Of a stretch of 64,000 nt of DNA, positions 28,994-46,624 are shown in pieces. The translations under genes were made by a program, and so were the position numbers. The stretch comes from Ideonella alba (GTDB lineage Bacteria; Pseudomonadota; Gammaproteobacteria; Burkholderiales; Burkholderiaceae_C). Below the pieces are notes generated by a model. That model was given only the letters and a program-made list of their open reading frames with translations, was not told the origin of the DNA and made no database searches. The DNA is taken from contig NZ_JAGQDF010000004.1 in NCBI RefSeq assembly GCF_018069875.1, forward strand, positions 310,001 to 374,000, read 5' to 3'. Position 1 is the first letter of the stretch, and every line of letters starts with the position of its first letter.

Positions 28994-28994
28994 G

Positions 28995-30152: not shown

Positions 30153-30197
30153 TCGGGGCGGCTTGATCGGGGTGGCCTGAGCGGCCAGGCCGTGGGT

Positions 30198-30956: not shown

Positions 30957-32272
30957 TGCGGCGGCTCGCGCATCTCGATGTAGGCGCGGGCGCGCAGCTC
31001 GTCGATCCACTCGGTGAAGGCGGCGTCGTACTTCTGCTCGCGCAGCGCGTTGCGCGCCTGCTCGCGCAGCTGGCGGATGTCCACCGGCACCTGGCGGCGG
31101 TCGGTCACCTGCAGCAGGTGCACGCCGAAACGCGACTGGAAGGGCTCGGACATGCTGCCCACCGGCAGGCGGTTCATCACCTCCTCGAACTCGGGCACGA
31201 AGGCGCCCGGGTTGGCCCAGCCCAGGTCGCCGCCCTGGGCGGCGCTGCCGTCCTCGGAGACGCTGCGCGCCACCTCGTCGAAGCGGCGCTTGCCGCTGGC
31301 GATCTGATCGCGCAGCTCGCCCAGGCGGCGCGCCGCGGCGTCCACGCTCAGGCTGGCGCCGGGCCGCAGCAGGATGTGCGAGGCGCGGGTCTGGGTGGCG
31401 GTGGCGATGGCCTCGCTGCGCTCGAGCAGCTTGAGCACATGGAAGCCGGCGCCGCTGCGCACCGGGGCGGCCACCACGGCGCCCACCGCCAGCGGCTTGA
31501 CCGCCTCGACGAACAGGTCGGGCAGGCGGTCGGCCGGGCGGCTGCCCAGCTCGCCGCCGCGTTCGCGGCCGGCGCTGTCGTCCGACATGTCTCGCGCCAC
31601 CACGGCGAAGCTCTCGCCGCCACGCACGCGGCGCAGCGCCTCGTCGGCGCGCGCCTGGCGCTGCGCGACCACGTCGGCCGCGGCGCCTTCGGGCACGCTG
31701 ACCAGGATCTGGGCGATGTTGAGGGTCTGGGTGGCGCCGGCCTGGTTGCGCCGGGCCTCGATGAAGTTCTCGACCTCGCTGTCGGTGACGCGGATGCGCG
31801 CGGGCACCTCGCGCTCGCGGGCGCGCTCGGCCAGCAGCTGGTCGCGCAGGTTGGCGCGCAGGCGCTGGTAGTCCATGCCCTCGTCGCGCAGGCGGGTGCG
31901 GAACTGCTCGAGCGTCATCTTGTTGGCCGAGGCGATGTTGGCCACCGCGCGGTCAACCTCGAGGTCGTCGGCCTTCAAGCCGCTTTCGCGCGCCCAGGTG
32001 ACCTGCACGCGCTCGTCGATCAGGTCGCGCAGCGCCTGGCGGCGCAGCTCGTCCTCGGGCGGCATGGGGCTGTTGGCGCGGCGCAGGTCCTCGCGCAGGC
32101 GCTGCGCGCGCTGTTCAACCTCGATCTGGGTGACCAGCTCGTTGTTGACCACCGCCACGATGTAGTCGGCCGAACGCGCCGTCGTGCGGCTGCTCTGGCC
32201 ATGGGCGGCGGTGCCAAGGCTCAGGGCCAGAGCCAGGCTCAGGCAGGTCAGCAGGGAGGTGTGCTTGCTCAT
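30953..32272 (-). CDS. surA: Periplasmic chaperone / peptidyl-prolyl isomerase SurA
   Basis: Chaperone that escorts outer-membrane proteins across the periplasm to BamA. The 439-aa protein has a signal peptide ([25 protein letters not shown]), the SurA N-domain (about 35-160), two parvulin domains (about 180-285 and 295-400) and the short C-terminal helix. The start ATG overlaps the lptD stop (ATGA). The order lptD-surA-rsmA is the classical operon. Confidence 0.95.
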
Positions 32273-34626
32273 GGGGAGGTGGTGCTGGCCGCGCCGTCGT
32301 CGCGCAGCATTCGGTAGCCGGGGATATTGTCCTTCAGGACCTTGAGGGGGCTGGGCCCCAGGCGGGACAGGCCGATCAGCTCGAGCTGCACCATCAGCCG
32401 GGTGGTGGCCTCGCTGGTGCCGGTGGACACGCGTTCGGCCACGACGCGGCCGATCCAGCAGCCGGCGTCGTACTCCAGACCGGCCAGGCCTTCGGTGACA
32501 CGGGCATCGCGCCGGCTGAAGTTGATGCGGCCCACGCCGTAGAGCGTGCCGCCGCAGGCGCTGCCACCGGCGCGCGGGGTCTCGCGCTGGTAGATCGGCC
32601 ATTGCCAGCCGAGTTCCACCTGCTCGGACAGCTCGCGCGCGAAGCGGTAGGTGGCCGACAGCGTCTTGAAGTCTCCCGGCTGCCAGCGCGCCGCCAGGAT
32701 CGAGCGGGTGGTGCGCTGGCGGTCGGTGTTGTATTGCAGGTTGACGTCGAAGCGCCACTGGGGCACCACGGTGCTGGAGCCGAACAGCAGCACGTCGGAG
32801 AAGCGCGAGGCGGCCACGCCGCTCTCGGCGCCTAGGCCCGAGGCGCCCAGGCGCTCGGGGGTGATGCGCTGGTCCTTGAACAGGTAGCGCTGGGCCAGGC
32901 CCAGGCGCAGCAACTCGCCGCCGCCCACCGGGTCGAACCAGCGGCTGCCGGCGCCCAGCGTGACCTGGTGGACATCGGTGACGAAGTCCACGCCCGAGAA
33001 GCCGTTGTCCTGGTAGATCGAGATCTCGTTGAAATCGTTCACCGAGCTGTCGAAGTTGGGCAGCGTGTCCTGGTTGCGCCAGGGCGTGCGCACGTAGTGC
33101 AGGCGCGGCTCCAGCGTCTGCGACAGCGTGCGGCCGAACAGCTCGGTGCTGCGCTCGAAGCGCAGGCCGGTGTCCAGGCTCAGCGTGGGAATGGCGCGGC
33201 TGGCGCGGGTGCGGCCGTCGCTCATCGCCTGGTCGGTGCGGTAGCTGGCGGCGTTGATCGCCATGCGCGGCGTGAACCAGCCCCAGGACAGGTCGTGCGG
33301 CCACCACAGCGCGCCCAGCAGGTGGGCGCGTTCGCCGTCGGGGCGGGTGTCGCCGGTGGCGCGGTTGCGCAGCGTGAAGTGGTTGAACTCCAGCTGCGTC
33401 GACCAGTTCAACCCGGCCAGCGCCTCGCCCTGGCCCATCAGGCCCAGCTGCGGCAGGCGCTGGTAGGGCGGCAGGATCGGCGCGTCGGCCACCTGCAACG
33501 TGCGCCAGCCCAGCACCCGCGCATAGGCCTGCAGCGGCAGGCCCAGCCAGGAGGACAGCGGCTGGCTGGCGCGCAGGTCCTGGGCCAGCAGGCGCGGCGT
33601 CAGGCTGGGCAGCACGCGCGAGAAATCCTTCCAGTAGCTGTCGTCGCTGGCGTGCTGCAGGTCGAGCTGGTAGTGCAGGCCGCTGGCGCGCTCGCCCTGC
33701 AGGTCGATGTCGGCGGCGCCACGGCTGCGCCCGGTGGTGCGGTCGTTGGGCAGCCAGTGGGCCTTCAGGCGGCCCTCGTCCTGCGCCCACAGGTAGCGGT
33801 ACTCGCCGGTCAGCGACAGGCCGCGGCGGGTCAGCACGCCGGGGGTCAGCGTCAGGTCGTGGTCGGGCGCCAGGTTGACGTAGTAGGGCGTCTCCAGCTC
33901 GAAGCCGTTGCGACTGTCGAACGGGTAGATGGTGGGCGGCAGCCAGCCCGACTTGCGCTCGCCGGTGGCCGGAAAGCTCAGCACCGGCAGCGCCAGGATG
34001 GGCACGCCCAGGAAGCGCAGCGAGGCGCCCTCGGCGCGGCCGTCGTTGTGCTCGAAATCCAGCGACAGCCGGTCGGCCTGCAGCACCCAGTCGGCGGTGT
34101 CGGGGTCGTCGGCGCGGCAGCTGGTGTAGCTGGCCTGCTCGGCGGCCAGGCGATCGGTGCCGGTGAAGTTCAGCACCCGCGCCGTGCCGCCGCCGCCGGT
34201 GCGGGCGATGCGGTAGCGGGCGCCGTCGATCTGGCCTTCGCGGGTGTCCAGCTTCACCTCGGCACTGCGGCCTTCGAGCAGGTTGCCGGCCTGCTCCACC
34301 CGCACCGGGGCACGCGCCCAGGCACGGCGCTGGCGGGTGGAGAACTCCAGCAGGTCGGTGGTCAGGCGCAGGTCGCCCTGGCGCAGATCGACGTTGCCGC
34401 GGGCGACGCTGAGGTCGTCCAGCTGGCTGCGGATCTGGTCGGCCTCCAGCGTGACCCGGTCGTCGGTGGTGTCGATCTTCATCGCCGCCACCGGCGCCGC
34501 GCTCAGGCCCAGCGCCACCGCGGCAGCCACCGGCACCAGCCGCGGCAGGCGCGCGCTGGACAGGCGGTGAGCGGCGGTGGACGGGCGTGGGCGGAGCACG
34601 GCGGGACGATGGCGGGCACGGCCCAC
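32269..34626 (-). CDS. lptD: LPS-assembly outer-membrane protein LptD
   Basis: Outer-membrane translocon that inserts LPS in the outer leaflet with LptE. The 785-aa product has a long Arg-rich signal region ending in AAPVAA, the periplasmic OstA/LptA-like domain (about 50-190) and the C-terminal 26-strand barrel ending with the LQLELIGLSRLG-type strand. The GTG start at 34626 gives the usual length; GTG 34599 is an alternative. Disulfide-forming Cys pairs are visible (YTSCRADD and CGGTLYG/DAGCW). It is divergent from the AmgK-like gene across 37 bp. Confidence 0.95.
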   Translation of the reverse strand: MGRARHRPAVLRPRPSTAAHRLSSARLPRLVPVAAAVALGLSAAPVAAMKIDTTDDRVTLEADQIRSQLDDLSVARGNVDLRQGDLRLTTDLLEFSTRQRRAWARAPVRVEQAGNLLEGRSAEVKLDTREGQIDGARYRIARTGGGGTARVLNFTGTDRLAAEQASYTSCRADDPDTADWVLQADRLSLDFEHNDGRAEGASLRFLGVPILALPVLSFPATGERKSGWLPPTIYPFDSRNGFELETPYYVNLAPDHDLTLTPGVLTRRGLSLTGEYRYLWAQDEGRLKAHWLPNDRTTGRSRGAADIDLQGERASGLHYQLDLQHASDDSYWKDFSRVLPSLTPRLLAQDLRASQPLSSWLGLPLQAYARVLGWRTLQVADAPILPPYQRLPQLGLMGQGEALAGLNWSTQLEFNHFTLRNRATGDTRPDGERAHLLGALWWPHDLSWGWFTPRMAINAASYRTDQAMSDGRTRASRAIPTLSLDTGLRFERSTELFGRTLSQTLEPRLHYVRTPWRNQDTLPNFDSSVNDFNEISIYQDNGFSGVDFVTDVHQVTLGAGSRWFDPVGGGELLRLGLAQRYLFKDQRITPERLGASGLGAESGVAASRFSDVLLFGSSTVVPQWRFDVNLQYNTDRQRTTRSILAARWQPGDFKTLSATYRFARELSEQVELGWQWPIYQRETPRAGGSACGGTLYGVGRINFSRRDARVTEGLAGLEYDAGCWIGRVVAERVSTGTSEATTRLMVQLELIGLSRLGPSPLKVLKDNIPGYRMLRDDGAASTTSP

Positions 34627-34663
34627 GTAAAATTCGATTATCTCCGAGGGCCTTCGCCACCCT

Positions 34664-35713
34664 ATGACCGTTTCTCCCGATCAGATCGAGTGGCCCGACG
34701 CGGCCCGACACAGCGCCTTCCTGGCCTGGATCACGCCGTTGGCCGACAGCCAGGGCCTGCGCCTGGACACGCTGGCGCCCGCCTCGGCCGACGCCAGCTT
34801 TCGCCGCTACTTCCGCCTGGCCACGCTGGACGGCGGCTCGCGCATCGTGATGGACGCGCCGCCACCGCAGGAGGACGTGCGCCCCTTCATCGACATCGCC
34901 GGGCGCATCGCCCGCGCCGGCCTGCACGCGCCGGCGGTGCTGGCGGCCGACGAGGCCCAGGGCTTCGTGCTGCTGGCCGACCTGGGCCGCACGCCCTACC
35001 TGGCCGCGCTGCGCGAGGCCAGCACCGCCCAGGCCGACACCCTGATGCGCGACGCCTTCAAGGCCCTGGTGCAGTTCCAGGGCCAGGTCGACCCCAGCGG
35101 CCTGCCGGCGTATGACGACGCGCTGCTGCGCCGCGAGCTGGCGCTGTTCCCCGAGTGGTGCGTGCAGCGCGAGTTCGGCATCACCTGGACCGAGGCCCAG
35201 CAGGGCCTGTGGACGCGGGTGTGCGACGCGCTGGTGGCCAGCGCGCTGGCCCAGCCCACGGTGGCGGTGCATCGCGACTGGATGCCGCGCAACCTGATGC
35301 TCAGCGAGCCCAACCCCGGCATCCTGGACTTCCAGGACGCGGTGCGCGGCCCGGTGACCTACGACGTGGCCTCGATGCTGCGCGACGCCTTCATCTCCTG
35401 GGACGAGGAACGCGAGATCGACTGGACCGTGCGCTACTGGGAGCGCGCCCGCCGCGCCGGTCTGCCGGTCAACGAGGACTTCGGCGAATACTGGCGCCAG
35501 GTCGAGTGGATGGGCCTGCAGCGCCACCTGAAGGTGCTGGGCATCTTCTGCCGCCTCAAGCACCGTGACGGCAAGCCCGCCTACAGCGCCGACCTGCCGC
35601 GCTTCTTCGCCTACGCCACCAAGGTGGCGATGCGCTACGCGCCGCTCAAGCCCCTGCTGCCGCTGATCGAGCCGATGCAGGACGCCAAGGTGGCGGTGGG
35701 CTACACCTTCTGA
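34664..35713 (+). CDS. amgK: AmgK-like aminoglycoside-phosphotransferase-family sugar kinase
   Basis: A 349-aa kinase with an APH fold. The catalytic loop is VHRDWMPRNLML (HxDxxxxN) and the metal site is ILDFQDAV. Family and position (divergent from lptD) match AmgK, the anomeric N-acetylmuramate/N-acetylglucosamine kinase of the peptidoglycan recycling shortcut to UDP-MurNAc. In Pseudomonas and most betaproteobacteria murU follows directly; here a convergent LysR gene comes instead. The symbol rests on family and context, so moderate certainty. Confidence 0.8.
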   Translation: MTVSPDQIEWPDAARHSAFLAWITPLADSQGLRLDTLAPASADASFRRYFRLATLDGGSRIVMDAPPPQEDVRPFIDIAGRIARAGLHAPAVLAADEAQGFVLLADLGRTPYLAALREASTAQADTLMRDAFKALVQFQGQVDPSGLPAYDDALLRRELALFPEWCVQREFGITWTEAQQGLWTRVCDALVASALAQPTVAVHRDWMPRNLMLSEPNPGILDFQDAVRGPVTYDVASMLRDAFISWDEEREIDWTVRYWERARRAGLPVNEDFGEYWRQVEWMGLQRHLKVLGIFCRLKHRDGKPAYSADLPRFFAYATKVAMRYAPLKPLLPLIEPMQDAKVAVGYTF

Positions 35714-35735
35714 GCGCGGCCGCGCCCGCGGCGCC

Positions 35736-36704
35736 TCAGGAACAGGCCGCGCCCGGCGGCCCGGCCAGGGTTTCGCATCCGGCCGCGGCCAGCCAGGGGT
35801 CGCGCGCCTCGCCGCCGAACACCTCCAGCAGGTAGTCCCACAGCGCCCGCGTGCGCGCCGGCACGTAGCGGCGCGAGGGCATGCCGATCCACAACTGGCT
35901 GCTGAACAGCCGCCAGCCCGGCAGCACCCGCTCCAGCGCGCCCTCGCGCAGCGCGTCGTCGATGACGAAGGACGGCAGCGCCGCAATGCCCAGCCCGGCC
36001 AGCGCAGCCGCGTAGTTGGTGTCGGTGTGGCTGGTGCTGAGCACGCAGCGCTTGTCGGGCGTGGCGATGAAGGCCTCGCCGCTGGCGCCATGCACGAAGC
36101 GCACGCCGCGCTGGATCTCGGAGATTGGCGGGATCAGCACATCGTGCTGCGCCATCTCGGCCGGGTGCAGCGGACGGCCGCGGCGATCCAGGTACTCGGG
36201 CGCGGCGCAGGTGATCACCTCGGTCAGCGCCAGCAGGCGGGCGACGAAGCCGCCGTCGGGGGCGTCACGGCCGGCCATCAGCGTGATGTCGAAGCTCTCG
36301 TCCACCGCCTCCACCGGCCCGGGCGCGCTGAGCTCCACCGTCACCTGCGGGTGGCGGCGGTGGAACTCGGGCAGGTGCTTGGCCAGCTGGTGCACCGCCA
36401 CCGCCGGCGGCGCCAGCACGCGCAGGTGGCCGCGCGCCTCGGACACCGCGGCGCCGGCCAGGGCCTCGGCCTCCTCCACCTCGGCCAGGATGCGCCGGGC
36501 GCTGTCCAGGTAGGCCTCGCCCACGTCGGTCAGCGCCAGCTTGCGGGTGGTGCGGTTCAGCAGCCGAGCGCCCAGGTGGGCCTCGAGCTCGGCCACCAGC
36601 CGGGTCACCACCGCCGGCGCCAGGTCCAGCGCGCGGGCGGCGCCGGCCAGGCTGCCTTCGTCGACGACGCGGGCAAAGACCCGCATGGCGCGCAGCGTGT
36701 CCAT
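35736..36704 (-). CDS. LysR-family transcriptional regulator
   Basis: A 322-aa regulator with an N-terminal winged HTH (MDTLRAMRVFARVVDEGSLAGAARALDLAPAVVTRLVAELE, residues 1-60 in part) and a periplasmic-binding-like effector domain (about 90-300). No co-inducer can be predicted. It is convergent with amgK (22 bp between stops) and divergent from the first DUF4148 gene, which could be its target because LysR genes often regulate the divergent neighbour. Confidence 0.9.
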   Translation of the reverse strand: MDTLRAMRVFARVVDEGSLAGAARALDLAPAVVTRLVAELEAHLGARLLNRTTRKLALTDVGEAYLDSARRILAEVEEAEALAGAAVSEARGHLRVLAPPAVAVHQLAKHLPEFHRRHPQVTVELSAPGPVEAVDESFDITLMAGRDAPDGGFVARLLALTEVITCAAPEYLDRRGRPLHPAEMAQHDVLIPPISEIQRGVRFVHGASGEAFIATPDKRCVLSTSHTDTNYAAALAGLGIAALPSFVIDDALREGALERVLPGWRLFSSQLWIGMPSRRYVPARTRALWDYLLEVFGGEARDPWLAAAGCETLAGPPGAACS

Positions 36705-36771
36705 TCAACTATTCCTTTTTCAGCAATGGTGCATGTTCGTGACGACAGTTTATTCGCAGGCCGTCAATCCG

Positions 36772-37344
36772 TACAGTTCATCCCATCGATGAGCCGAACC
36801 CAATAACAGAGCGACTCACCGAGGTGGGACAGGACGATCCTGAAAAGCAAGTGCTTACCTTGATTCGCCGTGCCCCGTGTACGAACCAACCACCTCCGTT
36901 TGAACAGGACCTCACCATGAACCGCACCGTCAAGACCGTTTTCGCCGCCGCCCTGGCCATCGCCGCCGGCGCCAGCTTCGCCCAGTCCAGCCGCAACATC
37001 CCCACCACCTGGGCCAACGAAGACATGTCGGTCAACACCTACGTCAACACCCGCGCCCAGGTCCAGGCCGAGCTGGCCGCCGCCCGCGCCAACGGCCAGA
37101 TGGACACTTTCGACAACCTGGCCTACCTGAAGCAGGAGCGCGTGGGCAACCCGGTCGCCCCGATTCTGGCCAAGGTGCGCGAAGGCGCCCAGGCCGTGGC
37201 CGCCACCCAGACCGGTGGCCTGACCCGCGAACAGGTGCGCGCCGACCTGGACGCCGCCCGCCGCTCGGGCGAGTTCAACCCGTTCGACAACCTGGCCTAC
37301 ATGAACAGCACCGGCGCCCGCAGCGCCAAGGTGGCTCCGGCTGC
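36772..37344. repeat. 573-bp direct repeat, copy 1 (DUF4148 gene plus its leader)
   Basis: As read here, this block is identical to 39854-40426 (offset 3082). It starts at TACAGTTCATCCC, 145 bp before the gene, and ends six codons before the stop. Similarity continues with a few changes through the stop and the terminator hairpin. Upstream of the block the two copies are only about 55 % identical (27 of 49 positions, 36723-36771 vs 39805-39853), at the same spacing. Confidence 0.9.
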
Positions 37345-37366
37345 CGTGGCCGCCAACGGCAAGTGA
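36917..37366 (+). CDS. DUF4148 exported protein, copy 1
   Basis: A 149-aa secreted protein of the DUF4148 type, common in Burkholderiales. The signal peptide is MNRTVKTVFAAALAIAAGASFA. The mature part holds two related units, TRAQVQAELAAARANGQMD..FDNLAYL and TREQVRADLDAARRSGEFNPFDNLAYM, so the protein itself is an internal duplication. Function is unknown; relatives are small periplasmic proteins. AGGAC precedes ATG 36917. A strong terminator follows. The gene recurs almost unchanged at 39999. Confidence 0.85.
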   Translation: MNRTVKTVFAAALAIAAGASFAQSSRNIPTTWANEDMSVNTYVNTRAQVQAELAAARANGQMDTFDNLAYLKQERVGNPVAPILAKVREGAQAVAATQTGGLTREQVRADLDAARRSGEFNPFDNLAYMNSTGARSAKVAPAAVAANGK

Positions 37367-37404
37367 TCCCGCGCCGGCCTGCACGGCCGGCCTGCTGACC
37401 ACCC

Positions 37405-37445
37405 AACGCCCCGTGGAGGCCCCCTCCGCGGGGCGTTTCTTTTTC
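37405..37445 (+). terminator. Intrinsic terminator after DUF4148 copy 1
   Basis: AACGCCCCG (37405-37413) pairs with CGGGGCGTT (37429-37437), with an inner GGAGG/CCTCC-like extension, followed by TCTTTTTC. The hairpin is shared with copy 2, but the T-run is present only here. Confidence 0.8.
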
Positions 37446-37549
37446 AGCAGTGCGTGGCTCGCCTGTCCTCGGCCCCCCTGAGCCCGGCCGCTGCCGATGG
37501 CCTGCCCCTGGTATACATTGAAGCCGTCGTGAAGCCGGGCTTCAAGCCG

Positions 37550-39106
37550 ATGAACATCAGAACTGCAGGGGTGGTCGTCTGCCTGGTCTGCGTCGCCTTG
37601 GCGGGCTGCGCGGTGGCGGCAGCACCGCCCGAGACGCCATCCGTCCCGCGCGCGGCTGACACGTCAGTCCAGGACCGCGCGCTGCTGGAGCGCCTGCTGG
37701 CCCAGATTGAGCTGCGCCGCCTGGTGGAAACGCTGGCCGTGCGTGACGCGCTGGTCAACGGATTGGCGAAAGTCAGCGGCGAGGTGGATCGGCGCATGGC
37801 GGCCGGTGTGGCGCCACGCGTCCAGCTGCTGGAGACCCAGGCCGAACTGGCCGACGCGCGGATCTCCCGCCAGCAACTGGTGTCAGCGCTGGAGCAGCGG
37901 CAGGCGGACTACCTGCAGCGCTACGGCGAGGCCGCCGACTTGTCCGGCCCGTTCTCCTTGTTCGGTCCCATGCCAGGCCTGGATCAGGTGCGGCAGAGGG
38001 CGGGCTCGCGGGCCGACGAAGCCGAGGATGCCTGGCAGGCGCTCCGCCGACTTGAACCGCTGATGCCCATGTACCAGTCCCGGGCCAACGCACTGACCCA
38101 GCTGGTCACCATCAGGCAGAGCCAGTTCGACATCGGCCAGGTCTCGGTGTCGGAGTACTCGGTCCTGTTGGGCAGGCTGGCCGCGGCCCAGGCCCAGGCA
38201 GTCACGGCGGAGGCCCAGCGCCGCATCGGCTGGGCCCGACTGCAGGCAGCCATCGGGCGGCTTCAGCCAGCGGACCTGGCGCCGCGAGTGGCGGCGTTTG
38301 CCGCGGCTGCGGCGTCGTCCCCGCCCATCACCTCGGCTTCAGCCGTTCAGCATGTACCGGCTCCTGGCCCGACTCCAGCACCCCCGCGCTCGCCCGACGC
38401 CGACAACCTCGAAGCCCCGGCGGCCGGCGCTCCGTCGACCGATCCCACCCGCCCCGCCGACACCTCCACGGCGACCTGTGGCGACGGCCGCAGCACCGGC
38501 GGCCTGCCACCCATGGACTGGCCACCGCCGCGGCCCACGTCCGAGACCGAGATCTCGCGCCAGGCCCTGTTGGTCGAGGGTGCGCCCACCACCCTGGGAG
38601 ACGTAGGCCGGCGGCTGCAGGGCGCGCTGGACAAGTTGAACTACACCAACGCCTACCTGTCGGTGCCCAATGGATTTGCGCTGGTCAGCCGGATCGAGCG
38701 CATCCTCGAGGACGGGCGGCCCAGCCCCGGCCCCGGCCGCTGGAGCCAGGACCCGCCGCGCAACCGCGAGCTCAGCTTCGGCGCCTTCGTGCAATCGCTG
38801 TTCCGCGCGCCGGTGGGCCGCTACCGGGTGATCGTGTTCGTTGTCACCGATGCGCCGCGCAACCGCCAGGTGCCGCAGACCGCGGAGACCGAGCGCCGCC
38901 TGCAGGACCTGCTGGACTGCGGCAGCACCCAGCTGCCGGTCGAGGTGGCGCGCCTGCCCTTCTCGGCGCGGGTACGTGCCCAGGCGCTGATCTACGAGTT
39001 CGACAAGCGCAACGCCAACACGCCCGCCGAGCCGGCCACCCAGGCGCAGCTGGACGCCCGCCAGCACTTGACAGCGGCCGGCATCCTCGGTGAGCTGTAC
39101 CGGTGA
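37550..39106 (+). CDS. TolC-like coiled-coil lipoprotein with unassigned C-terminal domain
   Basis: A 518-aa predicted lipoprotein (signal MNIRTAGVVVCLVCVALAGC, lipobox LAGC, Cys20). Residues 40-240 are long amphipathic helices with two segments that look like the helical hairpins of outer-membrane efflux proteins: GVAPRVQLLETQAELADARI, and FDIGQVSVSEYSVLLGRLAAAQ, which resembles the TolC 'G.VS..D.L..R..L..A' pattern; barrel strands are missing. A Pro/Ala-rich linker (255-330) leads to a compact domain (335-518) with YRVIVFVVTD and ALIYEFDKR that I cannot name. ATG 37550 is chosen for the lipobox. The TIR gene follows after 10 bp. Confidence 0.7.
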   Translation: MNIRTAGVVVCLVCVALAGCAVAAAPPETPSVPRAADTSVQDRALLERLLAQIELRRLVETLAVRDALVNGLAKVSGEVDRRMAAGVAPRVQLLETQAELADARISRQQLVSALEQRQADYLQRYGEAADLSGPFSLFGPMPGLDQVRQRAGSRADEAEDAWQALRRLEPLMPMYQSRANALTQLVTIRQSQFDIGQVSVSEYSVLLGRLAAAQAQAVTAEAQRRIGWARLQAAIGRLQPADLAPRVAAFAAAAASSPPITSASAVQHVPAPGPTPAPPRSPDADNLEAPAAGAPSTDPTRPADTSTATCGDGRSTGGLPPMDWPPPRPTSETEISRQALLVEGAPTTLGDVGRRLQGALDKLNYTNAYLSVPNGFALVSRIERILEDGRPSPGPGRWSQDPPRNRELSFGAFVQSLFRAPVGRYRVIVFVVTDAPRNRQVPQTAETERRLQDLLDCGSTQLPVEVARLPFSARVRAQALIYEFDKRNANTPAEPATQAQLDARQHLTAAGILGELYR

Positions 39107-39116
39107 GCGCAGGCCG

Positions 39117-39743
39117 ATGAGCAGCGTCTTCATCAGCTACCGGCGCGGCGACAGCGAGTCGGACGCCGGCCGTCTGGCCGAGAACCTGGAAACTCTGCTG
39201 GGCAAGGACCAGGTCTTCCGTGACCACGAGGACATCGCCCCTGGCGCGCGCTTCAGCGAGGTGCTCGACCAGGCCCTGTCGCGCGCCGACGTGGCCGTCG
39301 TCGTGATCGGCCCGGGCTGGCTGACCGAGCTGCAGCGTCGCGCTGCGCTGCCCGAGCGCGACTTCGTGCGGCTCGAGGTAGCCCGCGCCCTCGAACGCAT
39401 GCCCCGCGTGATCCCCGTGCTGCTGAAGGGCGCCACGCTGCCCAGTGATGCTGACCTGCCGCCAGACCTGCACGGCCTGTCGCGTTTCCAGGCGGTCGTG
39501 CTGCGCAACGATGCGGCTTGGCAGGACGACGTGAAGCGTCTGGCGCGCGCGATCGGGCTGCCCTACCGCTGGGACTGGCTGGCCGCACGGGCGGCGGGCT
39601 TCCTGCTGTTGCTGTTCGGCGGGCTGTTCTGGGCCCCGATTCCCAGCGACATGAACCGCTGGATCGTCATGGGCGGCGTGGCCGCCTATGCCGCGGCCGA
39701 AGCCGTGGCCGCGCGCCGTCAGCGGCCCTCCCACACGCGCTGA
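39117..39743 (+). CDS. TIR-domain protein with two C-terminal transmembrane helices
   Basis: A 208-aa protein. Residues 1-140 form a bacterial TIR domain: VFISYRRGDSESDAGRL (BB-loop side), VFRDHEDIAPGARF, VVVIGPGWL and a Glu (E87 in FVRLEVARAL) at the place of the catalytic Glu of TIR NADases. Two hydrophobic segments (about 157-173 and 181-199) would anchor it in the inner membrane with TIR in the cytosol. TIR effectors in bacteria often degrade NAD+ when an associated sensor is triggered; here the only partner is the lipoprotein encoded 10 bp upstream. ATG 39117 has AGG upstream. Confidence 0.82.
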   Translation: MSSVFISYRRGDSESDAGRLAENLETLLGKDQVFRDHEDIAPGARFSEVLDQALSRADVAVVVIGPGWLTELQRRAALPERDFVRLEVARALERMPRVIPVLLKGATLPSDADLPPDLHGLSRFQAVVLRNDAAWQDDVKRLARAIGLPYRWDWLAARAAGFLLLLFGGLFWAPIPSDMNRWIVMGGVAAYAAAEAVAARRQRPSHTR

Positions 39744-39853
39744 TCCTTCTTGACCCGACCCGGCCCGCAGTCCGGTGCGGCCTGGGAGGTTCGTTCGCGT
39801 TTTCGCAATGAAGCATATCCGTTGTGGCTGTTTATTCCTGCAATCCGAGTCTA

Positions 39854-40426
39854 TACAGTTCATCCCATCGATGAGCCGAACCCAATAACAGAGCGACTCA
39901 CCGAGGTGGGACAGGACGATCCTGAAAAGCAAGTGCTTACCTTGATTCGCCGTGCCCCGTGTACGAACCAACCACCTCCGTTTGAACAGGACCTCACCAT
40001 GAACCGCACCGTCAAGACCGTTTTCGCCGCCGCCCTGGCCATCGCCGCCGGCGCCAGCTTCGCCCAGTCCAGCCGCAACATCCCCACCACCTGGGCCAAC
40101 GAAGACATGTCGGTCAACACCTACGTCAACACCCGCGCCCAGGTCCAGGCCGAGCTGGCCGCCGCCCGCGCCAACGGCCAGATGGACACTTTCGACAACC
40201 TGGCCTACCTGAAGCAGGAGCGCGTGGGCAACCCGGTCGCCCCGATTCTGGCCAAGGTGCGCGAAGGCGCCCAGGCCGTGGCCGCCACCCAGACCGGTGG
40301 CCTGACCCGCGAACAGGTGCGCGCCGACCTGGACGCCGCCCGCCGCTCGGGCGAGTTCAACCCGTTCGACAACCTGGCCTACATGAACAGCACCGGCGCC
40401 CGCAGCGCCAAGGTGGCTCCGGCTGC
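39854..40426. repeat. 573-bp direct repeat, copy 2
   Basis: Second copy of the block at 36772-37344. Together the copies bracket the lipoprotein/TIR pair, so the cassette could be lost or amplified by homologous recombination between them. Confidence 0.9.
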
Positions 40427-40448
40427 GCTGGCCGCCAACAAGCAGTGA
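39999..40448 (+). CDS. DUF4148 exported protein, copy 2
   Basis: A 149-aa protein identical to the one starting at 36917 except for the extreme C-terminus (AALAANKQ here, AAVAANGK there). Same signal peptide, same internal two-unit structure and same RBS. The identical 82 bp directly before the ATG suggest the same translational control, whereas sequence before 39854 differs, so transcription may be regulated differently. Its terminator hairpin has lost the T-run. Confidence 0.85.
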   Translation: MNRTVKTVFAAALAIAAGASFAQSSRNIPTTWANEDMSVNTYVNTRAQVQAELAAARANGQMDTFDNLAYLKQERVGNPVAPILAKVREGAQAVAATQTGGLTREQVRADLDAARRSGEFNPFDNLAYMNSTGARSAKVAPAALAANKQ

Positions 40449-40486
40449 TCCTGCGCCGGCCTGCACGGCCGACCTGCTGACCACCC

Positions 40487-40518
40487 AACGCCCCGTGGAG
40501 GCCACTCCGCGGGGCGTT
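40487..40518 (+). other. Degenerate terminator hairpin after DUF4148 copy 2
   Basis: The stem AACGCCCCG (40487-40495) / CGGGGCGTT (40510-40518) is kept from copy 1, but it is followed by CCTGCGTGG instead of a T-run, so it should terminate poorly and could allow read-through toward the GGDEF gene at 40582. Confidence 0.55.
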
Positions 40519-40581
40519 CCTGCGTGGAGGGTCTGACTGTGGCGCCCTCAGGTCTGGGCGCCAGCGGCCGATAAGACCGAC

Positions 40582-41328
40582 ATGCGTCGAGCCGTCCGCC
40601 TGTTCTTCCTGACCCGCCCGCTGTGGCTGAGCATTCCGGTGCTCATGGCCTTCAGCGTGGCCGCGTCGGTGGGCGCACTGATCCTGCTGACCGAGCTGAT
40701 GGGCCTGGGCTACCCGCCCACGTTCCGCCGCTCGCTGATGGTGGCCACGATCGCGCCGATGCTGGTCTCGGGCCCCATCGGCGGCTTCATCGTGCACCTG
40801 CTGCGCGAGGTGGATGGCGCCCACCGCCGCGCCCAGCACCTGGCCTGGCACGACGAGCTGACCGGCCTGCTGAACCGCCGCCGCTTCACCGAGCTGGGCC
40901 AGCAGGCGCTGGAGCGCGCGCTGCAGCAGGACGAGGCGATCACCGCCGTGCTGCTGGACGTGGACGACTTCAAGCAGGTCAACGACCGCCACGGCCACGC
41001 CGCCGGCGACGCCGTGCTGCAGACGCTGGGCCACGTGCTGACCGTGTCGCTGCGGCGCAGCGACCTGTCGGGGCGCTGGGGCGGCGAGGAGTTTGCGCTG
41101 GTGCTGCCCGGCGCCGGGCGCGAGGACGCGGCCGGCATCGTCGAGCGCCTGCGCCAGGCCGTGGCCAGCACACCCATCGATGTCGGCGGTCAGCCGCTGG
41201 CCTGCACCGTGTCGATCGGTGTGGCCGACGGGCGCCCTGGTGACAGTTTCGACGCGCTGATACGCCGCGCCGACGACGCCATGTACCGCGCCAAGACCAG
41301 CGGCAAGAACCGCGTGTGCGCGGCCTGA
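40582..41328 (+). CDS. Membrane GGDEF-domain diguanylate cyclase
   Basis: A 248-aa protein with two transmembrane helices (about 15-38 and 50-72) and a GGDEF domain (about 85-245). The active site is GGEEF, with an RxxD inhibitory site five residues before it (RRSDLSGRWGGEEF), so it should make c-di-GMP and be product-inhibited. The short periplasmic loop leaves little room for a sensor. It resembles the protein at 50248 in layout and domain sequence, suggesting paralogues. Confidence 0.9.
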   Translation: MRRAVRLFFLTRPLWLSIPVLMAFSVAASVGALILLTELMGLGYPPTFRRSLMVATIAPMLVSGPIGGFIVHLLREVDGAHRRAQHLAWHDELTGLLNRRRFTELGQQALERALQQDEAITAVLLDVDDFKQVNDRHGHAAGDAVLQTLGHVLTVSLRRSDLSGRWGGEEFALVLPGAGREDAAGIVERLRQAVASTPIDVGGQPLACTVSIGVADGRPGDSFDALIRRADDAMYRAKTSGKNRVCAA

Positions 41329-41475
41329 TCGACCGCGTCGCCCTGTTCGCCAGGATGGCCCTGCTCGCCCGGTGAGCGGCTGAACCGCGCCGGCCCCGCT
41401 GGCACCATCGCCCAGGCACGCCTCCCCGCACCGCCCCCGGTACCGCCAGCGCAGGCGCTGGGTTAGGCTGTGCCC

Positions 41476-42771
41476 ATGAACATCGCCGTGATCGGGGGCG
41501 GCATCGCCGGGCTGACGGCCGCGTGGCAGCTGTCGCGGCAGCAGCACCGGGTGACGCTGTTCGAGCGCCACGCCGTGCCCGGCTTCGTGGCCAGTTCGGT
41601 GACCTTGGATGGCACGCAGGCCGGCCTGCGCGTGGACGTGCCGCTGCGCGTGTTCTACCCCGGCTACTACCCCACGCTGACCCGCCTGTACGCCGAACTG
41701 GGCGTGGCCACCGAGCCGGTGGACTACGCCACCAGCTTCAGCGGCGCCGATGGCGGCCTGTACTTCCGCTGGCGCAATGCGCGCTGGGGCAGCTGGTCGG
41801 TGCCCTATGTGTGGCCGCAGGACCTGGCCCATCCGCGGGCGCGTCGCATTGCCGCGGGCGCCCTGCGCTTCCAGCGCCGCGCCCGCGCCGCGCTGGCCGC
41901 AGGGGCCTTGAACGGCGCCAGCATCGGCGAGTTCGTGGCCGACGAGCGCATCGCGCCCGAGTTCGTCGACGGCCTGCTGCTGCCCGCCATCGCCACCATC
42001 GGCACCTGCCACACCCAGGACGCCCGCGCCTACCCCGCCCAGGTGGTGGCCGGCTACGCCGCCGCCGGCCTGGCCCGCCACAGCGTGCGCCGCGCCAGCG
42101 ACGGCGCCGACGCCGTGGCCGCCCAACTGCTGGCCGGCATCCACCAGGTGCACTGCCAGGCCGGCGTGCAGGCCGTGCGGCGCAGCCAGCACGGCGACGG
42201 CAGCGTGACCGTGCTGCACGCCCGCGGCGACGAGGCCTTCGACCACGTCGTCTTCGCCACCCAGGCCAACCAGGCCCTGGCCCTGCTGGCCGACGCCACA
42301 CCCGACGAAACCGCCGCCCTCTCAGCCTTCCGCTACCGCGCGCTGGAGGTGGTGATGCACCGCGACCCCACGCTGATGCCCACCCGCCGCACCGACTGGT
42401 CGCCCGTCAACGCCCGCGTGTGCGCCGAGCACCCGCAGCCCGAGAGCACCATCTGGATCAACCGCGTGCAGCCCGCACTGCGCCACGCCGAACCGATCTT
42501 CCAGACCGTGATGCCCCAGCGCGCCCCGCGCGACGACCGCGTGATCAGCCGGGCGCGGTTTGAGCGGCCGCTGGTGGACGCCGGCAACACGGCGGCGCTG
42601 GCGGCGCTGCAGCGACTGCATGGGCAGCCGGGGCGGCGGGTGTGGTGGTGTGGGTCGTATGCCGAGGCGGGGGTGCCGTTGCTGGAGAGTGCGGTGAGGT
42701 CGGCGGTGGGGGTGGCGAGCTGCGTGACCCGCGCAGGCGGCGTCGATCCATCCTTGCATCGGCCAACTTGA
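41476..42771 (+). CDS. FAD-dependent amine-oxidase-like oxidoreductase
   Basis: A 431-aa protein with an N-terminal Rossmann fold (IAVIGGGIAGLTAAWQLSRQ, ending FERH) and the amine oxidase/protoporphyrinogen oxidase-like body. Similar proteins elsewhere neighbour cyclopropane-fatty-acid-synthase genes, but none is present here. ATG 41476 is used; a GTG at 41470 is in frame. The last 12 codons run into the ParD operator. The substrate is unknown. Confidence 0.83.
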   Translation: MNIAVIGGGIAGLTAAWQLSRQQHRVTLFERHAVPGFVASSVTLDGTQAGLRVDVPLRVFYPGYYPTLTRLYAELGVATEPVDYATSFSGADGGLYFRWRNARWGSWSVPYVWPQDLAHPRARRIAAGALRFQRRARAALAAGALNGASIGEFVADERIAPEFVDGLLLPAIATIGTCHTQDARAYPAQVVAGYAAAGLARHSVRRASDGADAVAAQLLAGIHQVHCQAGVQAVRRSQHGDGSVTVLHARGDEAFDHVVFATQANQALALLADATPDETAALSAFRYRALEVVMHRDPTLMPTRRTDWSPVNARVCAEHPQPESTIWINRVQPALRHAEPIFQTVMPQRAPRDDRVISRARFERPLVDAGNTAALAALQRLHGQPGRRVWWCGSYAEAGVPLLESAVRSAVGVASCVTRAGGVDPSLHRPT

Positions 42772-42784
42772 CAACAGTTGTCAA
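42768..42784. promoter_or_regulatory. Palindromic operator before parDE
   Basis: TTGACAAC-A-GTTGTCAA is a perfect 8+1+8 inverted repeat that overlaps the stop of the FAD gene and ends 18 bp before the ParD start. ParD-type antitoxins repress their own operon through such palindromes, so this is the likely autoregulatory site. Confidence 0.7.
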
Positions 42785-42802
42785 CGCCCACAAGATGCCC
42801 GC

Positions 42803-43054
42803 ATGAGCCGCGCCACCATGAGCTTCGCCCTGCCCGAATCGATGCGCGAGTACATCGACCAACGGGTCGCGACCGGCCACTACGGCAACACCAGCGAGTA
42901 CATCCGCGACCTGGTCCGCCGGGACCAGGAAGCCCAAGCCCGGCAGCGGCTGCGCGACCTGATCGAAGAAGGCCTGGCCTCCGGCCCTGGCCGGCGCCGC
43001 ACCAAGGCCGACGCGCAGGCACTGCTGGCCATCGCACGCGGCGACACCGATTGA
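42803..43054 (+). CDS. parD: ParD-family antitoxin
   Basis: An 83-aa type II antitoxin. The N-terminal ribbon-helix-helix is MSFALPESMREYIDQRVATGHYGNTSEYIRDLVRRD in the typical ParD/CopG arrangement (RHH DNA binding by residues 1-45), and the C-terminal helix region wraps the toxin. It overlaps the toxin start by four bases, so both are coupled. Autoregulation is likely through the palindrome at 42768-42784. Confidence 0.9.
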   Translation: MSRATMSFALPESMREYIDQRVATGHYGNTSEYIRDLVRRDQEAQARQRLRDLIEEGLASGPGRRRTKADAQALLAIARGDTD

Positions 43055-43377
43055 AGCCCGCGGTTCTGCGCCCGCAGGCGCTGCGCGATCAGCAGGACGA
43101 GGTCAGGTACTACCGCCGACAGGCCGGCAGCCGGGTGGCGGTGAAGGTGGCCAAGGCCACCGAGGCTGCACTCGACCAGATGGAGCTGGAGCCCGGCATC
43201 GGCTCACCCACGCTGGGCAAGGCCCTTGGCATTCCGGGGCTTCGGACGTGGCGGGTGCCCAGGTTCCCGCTGATCTGGTGCTACTTTGAGCGGGCCGACC
43301 ATCTGGACGTGGTCCGGCTGCTGGGCGAGCGGCAGGACATGGCAGGGATTCTGAGCGGCGAGTTCGGCAAGGACTGA
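43051..43377 (+). CDS. parE: ParE-family toxin (RelE/ParE superfamily)
   Basis: A 108-aa toxin read from a TTG start at 43051 that overlaps the parD stop (TTGA). It shows the RelE/ParE pattern: helix QDEVRYYRRQAGSRVAVKVAKATEAAL, PGIGSP, then strands LRTWRVPRFPLIWCYFERADHLDVVRLLGERQD. ParE toxins usually poison DNA gyrase, and the stable pair can maintain the neighbouring island. The non-ATG start would be missed by simple gene callers. Confidence 0.85.
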   Translation: MKPAVLRPQALRDQQDEVRYYRRQAGSRVAVKVAKATEAALDQMELEPGIGSPTLGKALGIPGLRTWRVPRFPLIWCYFERADHLDVVRLLGERQDMAGILSGEFGKD

Positions 43378-43503
43378 AGATGCCAGCAGAGTCGGGCCAC
43401 CGGCCAGAGCCCGCGCCGCGCCAATGACCGTCACTCGGCATCCGCTGCTGGCGGCGCATGGATGGTCGGCGGGATCAGGCCAGATTCCAGTAGGCTGAGG
43501 CCC

Positions 43504-43977
43504 ATGATGAGCCTGTCGTCCGACCCGATCACCATTCCAGAGGCCGTGAAGCAACTGCTCGGCATCGTCCAGCGACTGCACACTGCCTTTCCACACAAGG
43601 CCTTCACCCTGGACGGCCGGTTGGTCGGCGACCTGGGCGAGGTCCTGGTGGAGCAGGTGTACGACCTGACGCTGCTGGAGGGTCTGCAGAAGCACTACGA
43701 CGCAAAGACGCCCGACGGCAAGCACGTCCAGATCAAGGCCACGATGAAGGCCAACGTGACGTTCCCGGTGGACCACACCCCCGACTACTACCTGGCCGTG
43801 AAGATCCACCCTGACGGACGCCTCGAGGAAATCTTCAATGGCCCGGGATCGATCGTGCGAGAACTGATCAAGGGCCGGAAAGCCACCAAGACGAACCTGC
43901 ATTCGATCTCCATCGGCGCGCTGGGGAAGGTGCAGGGTGACGTGGACGCGGCAGAGAAGATCTCGCTGCGGCGATGA
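43504..43977 (+). CDS. DUF6998-like protein, possible PD-(D/E)xK nuclease fold
   Basis: A 157-aa soluble protein. LDGRLVGDLGEVLVEQVYDL, the HYDAKTPDGKHVQIKATM segment and the C-terminal basic RR end match what I recall of DUF6998. The E...D...QxK spacing (GEV, YDA, QIK) is that of a PD-(D/E)xK restriction-like core. The product is therefore a candidate nuclease or nucleic-acid binder, unproven. ATG 43504 is followed by a second ATG. It lies in the accessory region just after parDE. Confidence 0.6.
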   Translation: MMSLSSDPITIPEAVKQLLGIVQRLHTAFPHKAFTLDGRLVGDLGEVLVEQVYDLTLLEGLQKHYDAKTPDGKHVQIKATMKANVTFPVDHTPDYYLAVKIHPDGRLEEIFNGPGSIVRELIKGRKATKTNLHSISIGALGKVQGDVDAAEKISLRR

Positions 43978-44365
43978 CCGGCGTGAGGGCGGTGCCTTTG
44001 CTGTGCTTGGCGGCGGCTATCGGCCATCTCCAGTCGGTCGACCCCTCAAAGCGAGCGGCTGCAAGGCGCAGGAAGCCGATGTTCATCGGACTTATGCATG
44101 AGGCTTTTAAGAGTCATTCGACGCTCCCCAGCAAAATGTCGGCGGCAGCGGCCAGCGGACGTTCGACGCATGCGGGCCTGGAATCACTTCTACAACTGGC
44201 ACAGCCCTCATCACGAAATCGGCTGCCAACCACCGATGTCCCGAATCAAGAGATCACGAAAGAACCTCTTGACTCCTCACACCTAGGCCTTTCGTTTGCC
44301 CATGAGCAACTGCATAGACGTCTAGGTAGCCACACTTATTGCGAGGATGCTGCCCCACCCCTACA
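43978..44365. other. Gene-poor stretch of lower GC inside the island
   Basis: Between the DUF6998 gene and the LexA-like box I see no convincing gene. Short open frames (e.g. 43974-44426 +) have no RBS, biased composition or recognisable motif. No tRNA cloverleaf or inverted repeats of a mobile element were found. The base composition is visibly lower in GC than the flanks. It may be decayed DNA. Confidence 0.5.
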
Positions 44366-44381
44366 CTGTACGTATAAACAG
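44366..44381 (+). promoter_or_regulatory. Consensus-type LexA (SOS) box overlapping a -10 element
   Basis: CTGTACGTATAAACAG matches CTGT-N8-ACAG exactly and has the TA-rich centre of real SOS boxes. A possible -10 TATAAA (44373-44378) lies inside it. The small CxxC protein begins 38 bp downstream, so its transcription would be LexA-repressed. Confidence 0.65.
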
Positions 44382-44418
44382 TCACGGGGCCGCTTATGTC
44401 CGGGGAAAGTGACGCCGC

Positions 44419-44640
44419 ATGCCTAAGAAATCGACGATGCTAGATGTGGCCGCTACGAGGTGCCGGTTCTGTAGGCAGTCATGGCTGCCTGCTGAAGGCG
44501 TGTCTGCCCGCCACTCGTATTGCGATGCATGTGCAGAGGAGCGTCGCGCAGCGGCGTTCGTGGCGTTCGGTGGCCCGCCGCCAGCAATGCAGCAGCCGCT
44601 GGACTCGCATCTGCTTCCTAGACAGTTGCGTCGTGGCTAA
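44419..44640 (+). CDS. Small CxxC-CxxC protein (possible zinc ribbon), candidate SOS gene
   Basis: A 73-aa protein with CRFCRQSW (Cys pair at about 15 and 18) and YCDACAEERR (pair at about 35 and 38), a spacing that fits a zinc ribbon. The C-terminal 25 residues are low-complexity. No family is recognised. GGGGAA lies 12-17 bp upstream of the ATG, a weak RBS. The LexA-like box directly upstream is the main argument that it is a real gene. Its stop slightly overlaps the 3' end of the convergent kinase. Confidence 0.45.
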   Translation: MPKKSTMLDVAATRCRFCRQSWLPAEGVSARHSYCDACAEERRAAAFVAFGGPPPAMQQPLDSHLLPRQLRRG

Positions 44641-45668
44641 CAGCCCTCGAAGAACTCCTCGAGTTCTTTGATTGTCTGCCGAGCTCCCTGAAGGGCGGAG
44701 GAGCCGCCCAACGTCTTCCTTCTACCAGTCGACCCTAGCGGTTCTGACCATGCGGTCCATCGGTGCTTTCGAGGTGACTGCCACGACCATTCGACCACCT
44801 TCAGGCGCTTTCCGGTGGTGAGCTCCCATCGGACAGAGTTGGCCTTAACCTCGACCTGCCACGCCGGCGTCTCAAGTGACGACAATGCGTTGAGAAGCTG
44901 CTGTGCGGACTGGAAGCGCAGAGTGGTGTCATCATTAAGCGCCTTGCGAATCATTCGCCGCCATCCGCTGGGCACGTGCGGCAGCCAACGCAGCGTGTTG
45001 GCGTAACCGCCAGCGGGAACGGTCGCCCGAGGCGCGGGGTCCGCGTCGTACCACTGCTGGCCGTGCAGCAGGCGATACAGCGTCATTCCAAGCGCCCAGA
45101 TGTCGGACTTTGCGCTTGTCAGCCAGGTCGACCAAACTTCGAAAGCGATGTGATCCTTGTAGCCGGCCGCTGAGCCGTAGCCGTGCAACAGGCGGTCTGT
45201 CACCAAGCCGAAGTCACTAAGCAAGGCGACGCCGTTTCCGTCCAACAGAATGTTGCCTGGCTTGATGTCGCGATGGAGCATGCCTCGGGCGTGAAGCGCA
45301 TCCAGGCCGAGCGCCACTTCGGTGGCAATCTTGCGCGCTTCTGCCAGCGTCATCGGTCCTCGCTCATAGGCGCTCTGGAGCGAGCCTCCGGCGCAGAACG
45401 CCATACACAAATGGATGTTGTTCCCGCAAGGGGTTTCGGAGATGCTGTGAACGCGCACGACATTGCGGTGCTCCGCGGCGGAGAGCCTTTGAGCCTCCGC
45501 CAGCAGACCGGCCTTGCGCTTGTTCCACTCCACCGCGGTCTCGGTAGCTGACCTCGACATCACCTTTACGGCCACCTGGCCGTGAACGCCATCAAGGCCT
45601 TCGAAAACCTCGCCGAACGCACCTGCACCCAGCTTGCCCAGGAGCTGCAAAGGCGGAACGATGACCAT
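44637..45668 (-). CDS. Cytosolic Ser/Thr protein kinase
   Basis: A 343-aa Hanks-type kinase without a transmembrane segment. G-loop LGAGAFGEV, Lys35 in VAVKVM, HRDIKPGNILL (Asp134, Asn139), DFG (152-154) and SDIWALGMTLYRLL are intact, so it should be active. The C-terminal 75 residues (about 268-343; VKANSVRWELTTGKRLKVVEW) are an extra basic/aromatic domain of unknown nature. ATG 45668 overlaps the stop of the upstream gene (TGATG), so the pair is translationally coupled. Lower GC than the chromosome suggests horizontal acquisition. Confidence 0.85.
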   Translation of the reverse strand: MVIVPPLQLLGKLGAGAFGEVFEGLDGVHGQVAVKVMSRSATETAVEWNKRKAGLLAEAQRLSAAEHRNVVRVHSISETPCGNNIHLCMAFCAGGSLQSAYERGPMTLAEARKIATEVALGLDALHARGMLHRDIKPGNILLDGNGVALLSDFGLVTDRLLHGYGSAAGYKDHIAFEVWSTWLTSAKSDIWALGMTLYRLLHGQQWYDADPAPRATVPAGGYANTLRWLPHVPSGWRRMIRKALNDDTTLRFQSAQQLLNALSSLETPAWQVEVKANSVRWELTTGKRLKVVEWSWQSPRKHRWTAWSEPLGSTGRRKTLGGSSALQGARQTIKELEEFFEGC

Positions 45669-46141
45669 CAGAGCTCCCTTGCGGCAATGATTAGCATCGC
45701 AGCCTCCCTGCTCCCCTTACGCAGCGCTGCACCAGTGGTTTTCGACGTCCAAAAGCCCTCGTCCTCGAGATACTCGTCGACATTCCGGTCGCCGTACTTG
45801 CGGCTAATGACACCCTTGGCCAGCGACTGGACGCTTGCAACGGAAGCGGCTGCCGCGATGACAACTCCGCGGACCTCCGCGCTGTGTAGAAGTGACAGCG
45901 TCGCCTTCGATTGAGGCGCGGCACTTGCCTTCACCACCACCGATTTGATTTGCTGTTCCTTCAGAAAGCTGGCGCACCGCTGATGCAGAACGTGCAGCGC
46001 CGGCTCTCTTGGGCCGGATTGCAGGCTCCAGGTCTGGTCGTAATCGACCGAAATGGGGTCGTTCTTATCCGTCGGCACCTCTGCCACGACCACCTTCACA
46101 GCGTCACCCGAAACCACGAAACTGGCGAGTCTCTTAGACAT
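45668..46141 (-). CDS. Unknown protein, predicted RNase H/RuvC-like fold, partner of the kinase
   Basis: A 157-aa soluble protein. Its first strand KRLASFVVSGDAVKVVVAEV, then LKEQQIKSVVVKAS and a late helix REAAMLIIAA recall the layout of RNase H/RuvC-fold families (DUF3010 is the nearest I can think of), but I cannot match it to a family with confidence. ATG 46141 has a strong AGGAGG RBS 8 bp upstream; a frame back to 46177 is non-coding. It is cotranscribed with the kinase and could be its substrate, sensor or effector. Confidence 0.72.
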   Translation of the reverse strand: MSKRLASFVVSGDAVKVVVAEVPTDKNDPISVDYDQTWSLQSGPREPALHVLHQRCASFLKEQQIKSVVVKASAAPQSKATLSLLHSAEVRGVVIAAAASVASVQSLAKGVISRKYGDRNVDEYLEDEGFWTSKTTGAALRKGSREAAMLIIAAREL

Positions 46142-46624
46142 CTTTCTGCCTCCTCTGAGGCTGAATATGTTACCCAACGCTACTCAGCAGTTCGCGCGTC
46201 GGCTGCCGAAAGCTTCAGGCGGGCTGAGCATCGCACAGCTCACGGACGACAAAGTCTTTGAAGACACACGGCCACTCATAGGAATTGCCCGCAGCCAAAG
46301 TGGAGCCGAGGAGGACGTTTACGACCCTAACTAAGGGGTCGATAGGTTATTGCCCAGCATCGGCTCGCTGTCGCTATCACCGGCGGCTCGCACTCGCCTC
46401 GGGTAAATCATCAAGAAGCTCGAGGAAGATGACAGAACGCTTGTAGGACCCATTAAAGAAAAAGTGTGCGCGTGTGCCGGCCGTCACCATAATCTTGCAC
46501 ATCGGCTTTCCGCACCTTGCTGTCGCTCATCGCGTTTGGACCAGAGGCAGCAACAGATCGATAGCTACTGTCCGTCGAGCCCACCCCGACCAAACACGGT
46601 CAGTCCGAGCCAGCCGTCTGCCAA
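46142..46624. other. Island boundary region without a clear gene
   Basis: This 483-bp stretch carries the promoter region of the kinase pair (minus strand) and otherwise only short frames. A 55-codon frame at 46167-46334 (+) ends in a plausible hydrophilic tail (QLTDDKVFEDTRPLIGIA), but it has no RBS and overlaps that promoter region, so it is left unannotated. No integrase, tRNA or terminal repeats were found. Confidence 0.5.

Follow-up and report, generated by a model that had tools for sequence, protein, structure and literature searches.

Effector swapping is a feature of CBASS, and to our knowledge the known bacterial TIR systems sense in the cytoplasm. Pycsar uses one of two receptors: PycTIR depletes nicotinamide adenine dinucleotide (NAD+), and PycTM acts by disrupting the membrane (PMC11224242). 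Here we describe a two-gene cassette, encoding a lipoprotein and a TIR protein, that lies within a 64,000-nucleotide stretch of the Ideonella alba genome (assembly GCF_018069875.1, contig NZ_JAGQDF010000004.1, positions 310,001 to 374,000 of the forward strand; hereafter the window), which is part of contig C31 in a genome of 5.5 Mb and 36 contigs. The conserved part of the lipoprotein is an unnamed C-terminal domain, which we call LpC. We put at about even odds (roughly 0.5) the reading that the cassette represents one copy of an envelope module of two genes that is widespread and relays an envelope event to a membrane partner, here a TIR NADase.

Compared to Pycsar (PMC11224242), the LpC pair likewise joins one regulator type to a TIR or a membrane output, but it has no nucleotide cyclase or cyclic-nucleotide receptor and its regulator is exported. 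Neither a CD-NTase, a pyrimidine cyclase nor a nucleotide receptor that would place it with CBASS or Pycsar was found in the pair, and the GGDEF gene close by belongs to the site itself, being present there in related genomes without the cassette. With respect to Thoeris, the TIR protein gives only partial, low-scoring matches to ThsB models; no ThsA-type effector was found at the locus, the rest of the genome not having been searched for one, and PADLOC models gave no match to the lipoprotein at E 0.5. The NADases SARM1 and Caenorhabditis elegans TIR-1 differ in another way, since the 208-aa TIR protein of the window lacks ARM and SAM domains and has instead a predicted membrane hairpin and a separate exported partner. 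In titles, the opening parts of abstracts and passages of PMC10907252 and PMC7159879, a survey that leaves bioRxiv and most subscription papers outside, TIR conflict systems are described but not a pair of an exported LpC protein and a TIR protein. The TIR effector is of a known kind; what is new is that it is tied to an exported domain with interchangeable heads.

The linkage of the two genes in other genomes, on which an earlier interpretation (the sequence-only reading) had staked its proposal, was borne out. A pattern scan of 84,980 species genomes followed by comparison with a four-row alignment confirmed 37 LpC loci among 137 candidate stretches, a lower bound since the scan catches only loci carrying one of two short peptide patterns. 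Eight of these have a TIR partner, 26 a small multi-helix protein and three neither (L055, L066 and L048, the last at a contig end). Counting open reading frames (ORFs) of at least 70 aa, all 34 partner matches lie on the same strand and no more than 942 nt 3′ of LpC, and there is none elsewhere in the 342.7 kb of the 37 loci. The order of LpC and partner is fixed and the junctions are mostly short or overlapping; at L057 one extra gene intervenes. The hidden Markov models for the partners were built from 14 multi-helix and six TIR proteins chosen by eye, so that those match by construction and the others independently. With L044, L046, L011, L100, L101, L108, L111 and the window itself, the set comprises 45 distinct loci, 12 with a TIR partner, 30 with a multi-helix partner and three with neither. 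For this count L045 (partner identical to that of L047), L010 (contig of L075) and L012 and L110 (contig of L079) were dropped as duplicates, and the near-identical L052 and L078 were kept as two loci. Computation thus establishes the pairing of LpC with a partner, and predicts that one member of the pair is exported and the other resides in the membrane. At L051 (3322-7201), in a Hyphomonadaceae metagenome-assembled genome, three tandem LpC genes are followed by one TIR gene.

A smaller set of 149 genomes, the window's own included, gave matches to query P0003 in G000 (the window's genome), G061, G103 and G117. G061, a genome from another genus, encodes a lipoprotein that combines a proline-rich linker with the same C-terminal domain and, next to it downstream, a TIR protein that has helices at its C-terminus; no DUF4148 flank was present among the ORFs of the 3.9 kb read, which speaks against the DUF4148 repeats around the I. 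alba cassette being part of the module. In G103 and G117, LpC stands behind an N-terminus resembling that of the FecR-bearing L068 and precedes a multi-helix protein of ∼140 aa. The distribution of LpC is wide and patchy. With the own genome included in each sample, LpC occurs in 4/399 genomes drawn from the window's family (all four with a TIR partner), in 5/399 of the order (using a smaller alignment) and in 2/398 of the phylum; within the genus, the cassette query matched in one genome of 16. Two plasmids carry LpC, both with a multi-helix partner, and one of these pairs (L100, 5866-7041) lies on a Nostocales plasmid of 15.6 kb, which is annotated as also carrying an integrase and ParA/ParB. 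No LpC relative was found in phage records, nor in viral contigs, where one pattern yielded four candidate stretches and none was confirmed.

The AlphaFold2 model of LpC is of good quality (pLDDT 86.8, pTM 0.85) and has no clear match among the folds compared, which included the BamC N-terminal fold; sequence searches gave no PDB relative at E 1 or below, and the members scanned have no Pfam match above cut-off and no specific NCBIfam model. A hydrophobic, export-like stretch precedes LpC in 34 of the 37 proteins when the hydropathy threshold is 1.45 and in 28 when it is 1.9. L064, L073 and L077 lack it even at the lower threshold, L077 lying at the edge of its contig. A simple lipobox rule is satisfied in nine of the 37, indicating that many LpC proteins are not obviously lipoproteins. 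What stands in front of LpC varies: Pfam assigns FecR in L058 and L068, sCache_2 in L060, and LysM with TPR in L070, and sub-threshold matches point to CarboxypepD_reg (L053, L067) and M48 (L076). L060 (372-1592), in which the sCache_2 sensor is fused to LpC and the partner is a multi-helix protein, gives the strongest indication in this family that a ligand may be sensed.

The window's protein had been described as a TolC-like lipoprotein, of which the lipoprotein part, with its lipobox, stands and the TolC part is weak. The helical resemblance to TolC/OEP is confined to a 200-residue N-terminal region, compared with the 414 positions of the full TolC model, and falls below cut-off with PF02321 (E 0.0051; 17.1 against 22 bits) as with TIGR01844 (E 0.016; 14.2 against 225 bits). 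A PDB sequence search with this region gave nothing better than E 0.66. Since, in addition, OEP is absent by Pfam from the 15 other LpC proteins scanned (the remainder having been read by eye only), we rejected the TolC-like part as the conserved core. The conserved part is the C-terminal LpC domain, and its commoner partner is the small multi-helix protein, not a TIR protein.

For the TIR protein, SARM1 was the nearest relative both by sequence (E 9e-6) and by fold. The SARM1 residue aligned with Glu87 (E87) is E642, counted from a chain ending at residue 700, and E642 is the catalytic Glu of SARM1 (PMC7282519). A Glu at this position is kept in 12/12 TIR partners (10 aligned rows, and L108 and L111 by eye). 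Modelling thus gives the protein a SARM1-like fold with a putative catalytic E87, the NADase residue that the sequence-only reading had called for, and judging by sequence it may act as an NADase. The same reading had counted two transmembrane helices; residues 155-173 pass a hydropathy scan and are the sole passing helix, whereas the support for the other (177-201) is a modelled helix only. Elsewhere in the genome there is another, distant TIR gene (G000:C30:201957-202394, L002; 32% identity, 454-aa frame).

The multi-helix protein was scanned in one member, that of L068, which has no Pfam model above cut-off, no NCBIfam model specific to it and no PADLOC match. Alignment with hhalign of the multi-helix proteins and the N-terminal helices of the TIR partners at L052, L054 and L078 gave no sign of homology (probability 0.2), in what is a weak test with a template of three sequences. 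The L068 partner and L078 have sub-threshold Pfam matches to the same part of Acyl_transf_3, which we take as shared helical composition. In a tree of 45 LpC domains, which includes three L051 copies among its 12 TIR rows and leaves out L108 and L111, the TIR-partnered rows cluster, with four changes of partner (2-5 in bootstraps; 0/500 shuffles as low). Inner branches of the tree are weak, and a single origin of TIR partnering is possible.

The fixed order, the mostly tight junctions, the exported LpC, the membrane partner and the exchangeable N-termini together suggest that LpC relays the state of the envelope to the partner across the inner membrane. Under the envelope-module reading, the first gene would provide an exported protein, here a lipoprotein, with LpC in the periplasm behind an interchangeable N-terminal part, and the second an inner-membrane partner, either the small multi-helix protein or a TIR domain anchored by a hairpin of helices. 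An envelope event would be detected or relayed by the LpC protein, which would hold or release its partner through the membrane; TIR domains thus released would assemble in the cytoplasm and cleave NAD+ via E87, leading to a growth stop. If Pycsar is a guide, the multi-helix protein would act as an effector on the membrane and the TIR as an NADase effector. Sensing, physical interaction of the two proteins, NADase activity and a protective, possibly anti-phage, role are what we infer. More tentatively, and with the odds somewhat against it, the pairs may constitute an undescribed outside-in immune or conflict family, in which LpC serves as a periplasmic receptor whose sensor heads can be exchanged and which drives, through the inner membrane, a multi-helix effector or a SARM1-like TIR NADase, the threat being read at the envelope and not in the cytoplasm. 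If true, the LpC-TIR pair would be a receptor-like, outside-in TIR pathway in bacteria, in a layout reminiscent of animal Toll receptors, and a testable joint role would fall to a domain and a small membrane protein that both lack a name.

Several observations weigh against the envelope-module reading and its immune extension. TIR is the minority partner (12/45, against 30/45 for the multi-helix protein), and all loci were found through LpC, so that the counts cover LpC-linked TIRs only. Three of the 45 LpC genes, one at a contig end, have no partner. Homology between the multi-helix protein and the N-terminal helices of the three TIR partners compared is not detectable, and the equivalence of the two partner types therefore rests on position only. 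The hairpin region of the TIR protein was modelled with modest confidence (pLDDT 55-82 in blocks of ten). Neither the LpC proteins nor the single multi-helix protein submitted to PADLOC gave a match. Ten flanking proteins, one from each of 10 loci of which two are TIR loci, mostly bear unrelated Pfam names, with one patatin-like protein (L047) and one relaxase among them; being read by Pfam only, this sample speaks neither for nor against a place in defence islands. Finally, the G+C content of the cassette (0.717) is close to that of the window (0.719), and composition therefore carries no sign of origin.

Some of these points would suit a signalling pair concerned with envelope stress or physiology and unrelated to phages or rivals, in which LpC reads the state of the envelope, the membrane partner adjusts transport or metabolism and the TIR makes a signal molecule without killing. 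FecR and Cache fusions, the mostly unrelated flanking proteins and the fact that most partners are not TIRs are in keeping with such a role, but the patchy spread (4/399 in the family, 1/16 in the genus) and the two plasmid copies fit an accessory system better than housekeeping, and we consider it rather unlikely. We also think it unlikely that LpC is a guard or antitoxin restraining a harmful membrane partner (the TIR NADase or a pore-like multi-helix protein), with loss of the envelope protein, not a ligand, as the trigger: the regulator gene comes first, with mostly short or overlapping junctions, and there are two interchangeable partner kinds, a situation known from Pycsar, both of whose outputs do harm (PMC11224242), but Cache, FecR and LysM at the N-terminus have the look of inputs, and LpC genes also occur without a partner. 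That the TIR is a non-catalytic scaffold which only assembles other proteins is very improbable given a nearest relative that hydrolyses NAD+, a Glu on its catalytic residue and the retention of that Glu throughout the TIR partners, although fold alone is no proof of activity.

How the cassette came to its site was examined by comparison within the genus, which allows species with and without it to be set side by side. At the corresponding place, two congeners (G014 and G002) have LysR, just one DUF4148 gene and GGDEF, and the genes adjacent to the cassette are likewise DUF4148, LysR and GGDEF. A 16-kb segment of G014 aligns with window positions 28838-44029 at ∼93%, interrupted only by the cassette; the window species carries ∼3.1 kb extra, consisting of the two cassette genes and the second DUF4148 gene. 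In the remaining 15 genomes of the genus, up to 10 candidates each were scored against query P0003, and none matched at E 0.001 or below.

The two 573-bp blocks had been reported as apparently identical, and they are so exactly (offset 3082), a length of identity to which nothing close is expected by chance; the two-gene unit between them, with its 10-bp gap, was likewise as reported (Table 1). Their DUF4148 cores differ at 0/573 positions from each other and at 27/573 from G014. Beyond the blocks the copies remain alignable but diverge: just upstream, 36/57 columns are identical between the window copies and 47/71 between the left copy and G014, a similarly poor match, and downstream a terminator region is common to both. 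A recent simple duplication is an unlikely fit because the upstream part would have been copied along; the pattern fits a second copy that is older or incoming, with its core later homogenised by gene conversion or recombination. That both copies are real and not the product of mis-assembly is supported by their differing flanks and 3′ ends. If the repeats recombined with each other, the cassette would be cleanly lost, leaving the single-copy arrangement seen in G014. The proposal that the repeats permit loss or amplification thus finds a matching loss outcome in two congeners, although the empty site may equally be the state before gain. We rejected a mobile element with the repeats as its ends, and likewise a composite transposon or integron cassette, the repeats being DUF4148 genes native to the site and the ORFs between the DUF4148 copies leaving room for two genes only. 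In another congener (G005:C24, 436132-442671) there are four DUF4148-like matches in two neighbouring pairs, one with an internal stop, indicating that DUF4148 duplication recurs in the genus.

Table 1. Features of the cassette and its flanking repeats, in window coordinates
Feature	Position	Strand	Remarks
Left direct repeat	36772..37344	+	Most of DUF4148 gene 1 with its upstream region; native left flank, shared with G014 and G002
DUF4148 gene 1	36917..37366	+	149 aa; PF13663 E 5.7e-14; signal-peptide-like start, by eye
Terminator-like hairpin	37405..37437	+	15-pair stem and T run, between DUF4148 gene 1 and cassette
Lipoprotein gene	37550..39106	+	518 aa; LAGC lipobox at residues 17-20, read by eye
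TolC/OEP-like helical region	37682..38269	+	Lipoprotein residues ∼45-240; weak, below cut-offs
LpC domain	38513..39103	+	Conserved exported C-terminal domain; 37 genome loci, 38-row alignment
TIR protein gene	39117..39743	+	208 aa; TIR_2 E 8.3e-15, above cut-off; starts 10 bp after lipoprotein stop
Glu87 codon, putative catalytic residue	39375..39377	+	Aligns with the Glu of SARM1 WVHKE
C-terminal helical hairpin, predicted membrane anchor	39570..39719	+	Residues 152-201; AlphaFold2 helices 152-170 and 177-201
Right direct repeat	39854..40426	+	Most of DUF4148 gene 2 with its upstream region; native right flank, shared with G014 and G002
DUF4148 gene 2	39999..40448	+	Protein 99% identical to copy 1 over residues 1-147

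Because the terminator-like hairpin follows DUF4148 gene 1, the lipoprotein-TIR pair may have its own promoter; a simple sigma-70 scan found none for the cassette. Support for the hairpin is moderate, with three terminator-like sites found in the region against 1.6 expected. Synteny with G014 is broken from 44029 to 46611, giving a second variable spot of lower G+C content near the cassette; within it (44030-46610) lie an ORF without a Pfam match (45671-46177, minus strand) and a protein kinase gene (44640-45668, minus strand). A ParD/ParE-like toxin-antitoxin pair (42803-43374; Pfam E 1.4e-7 and 1.7e-6) is located within the stretch syntenic with G014.

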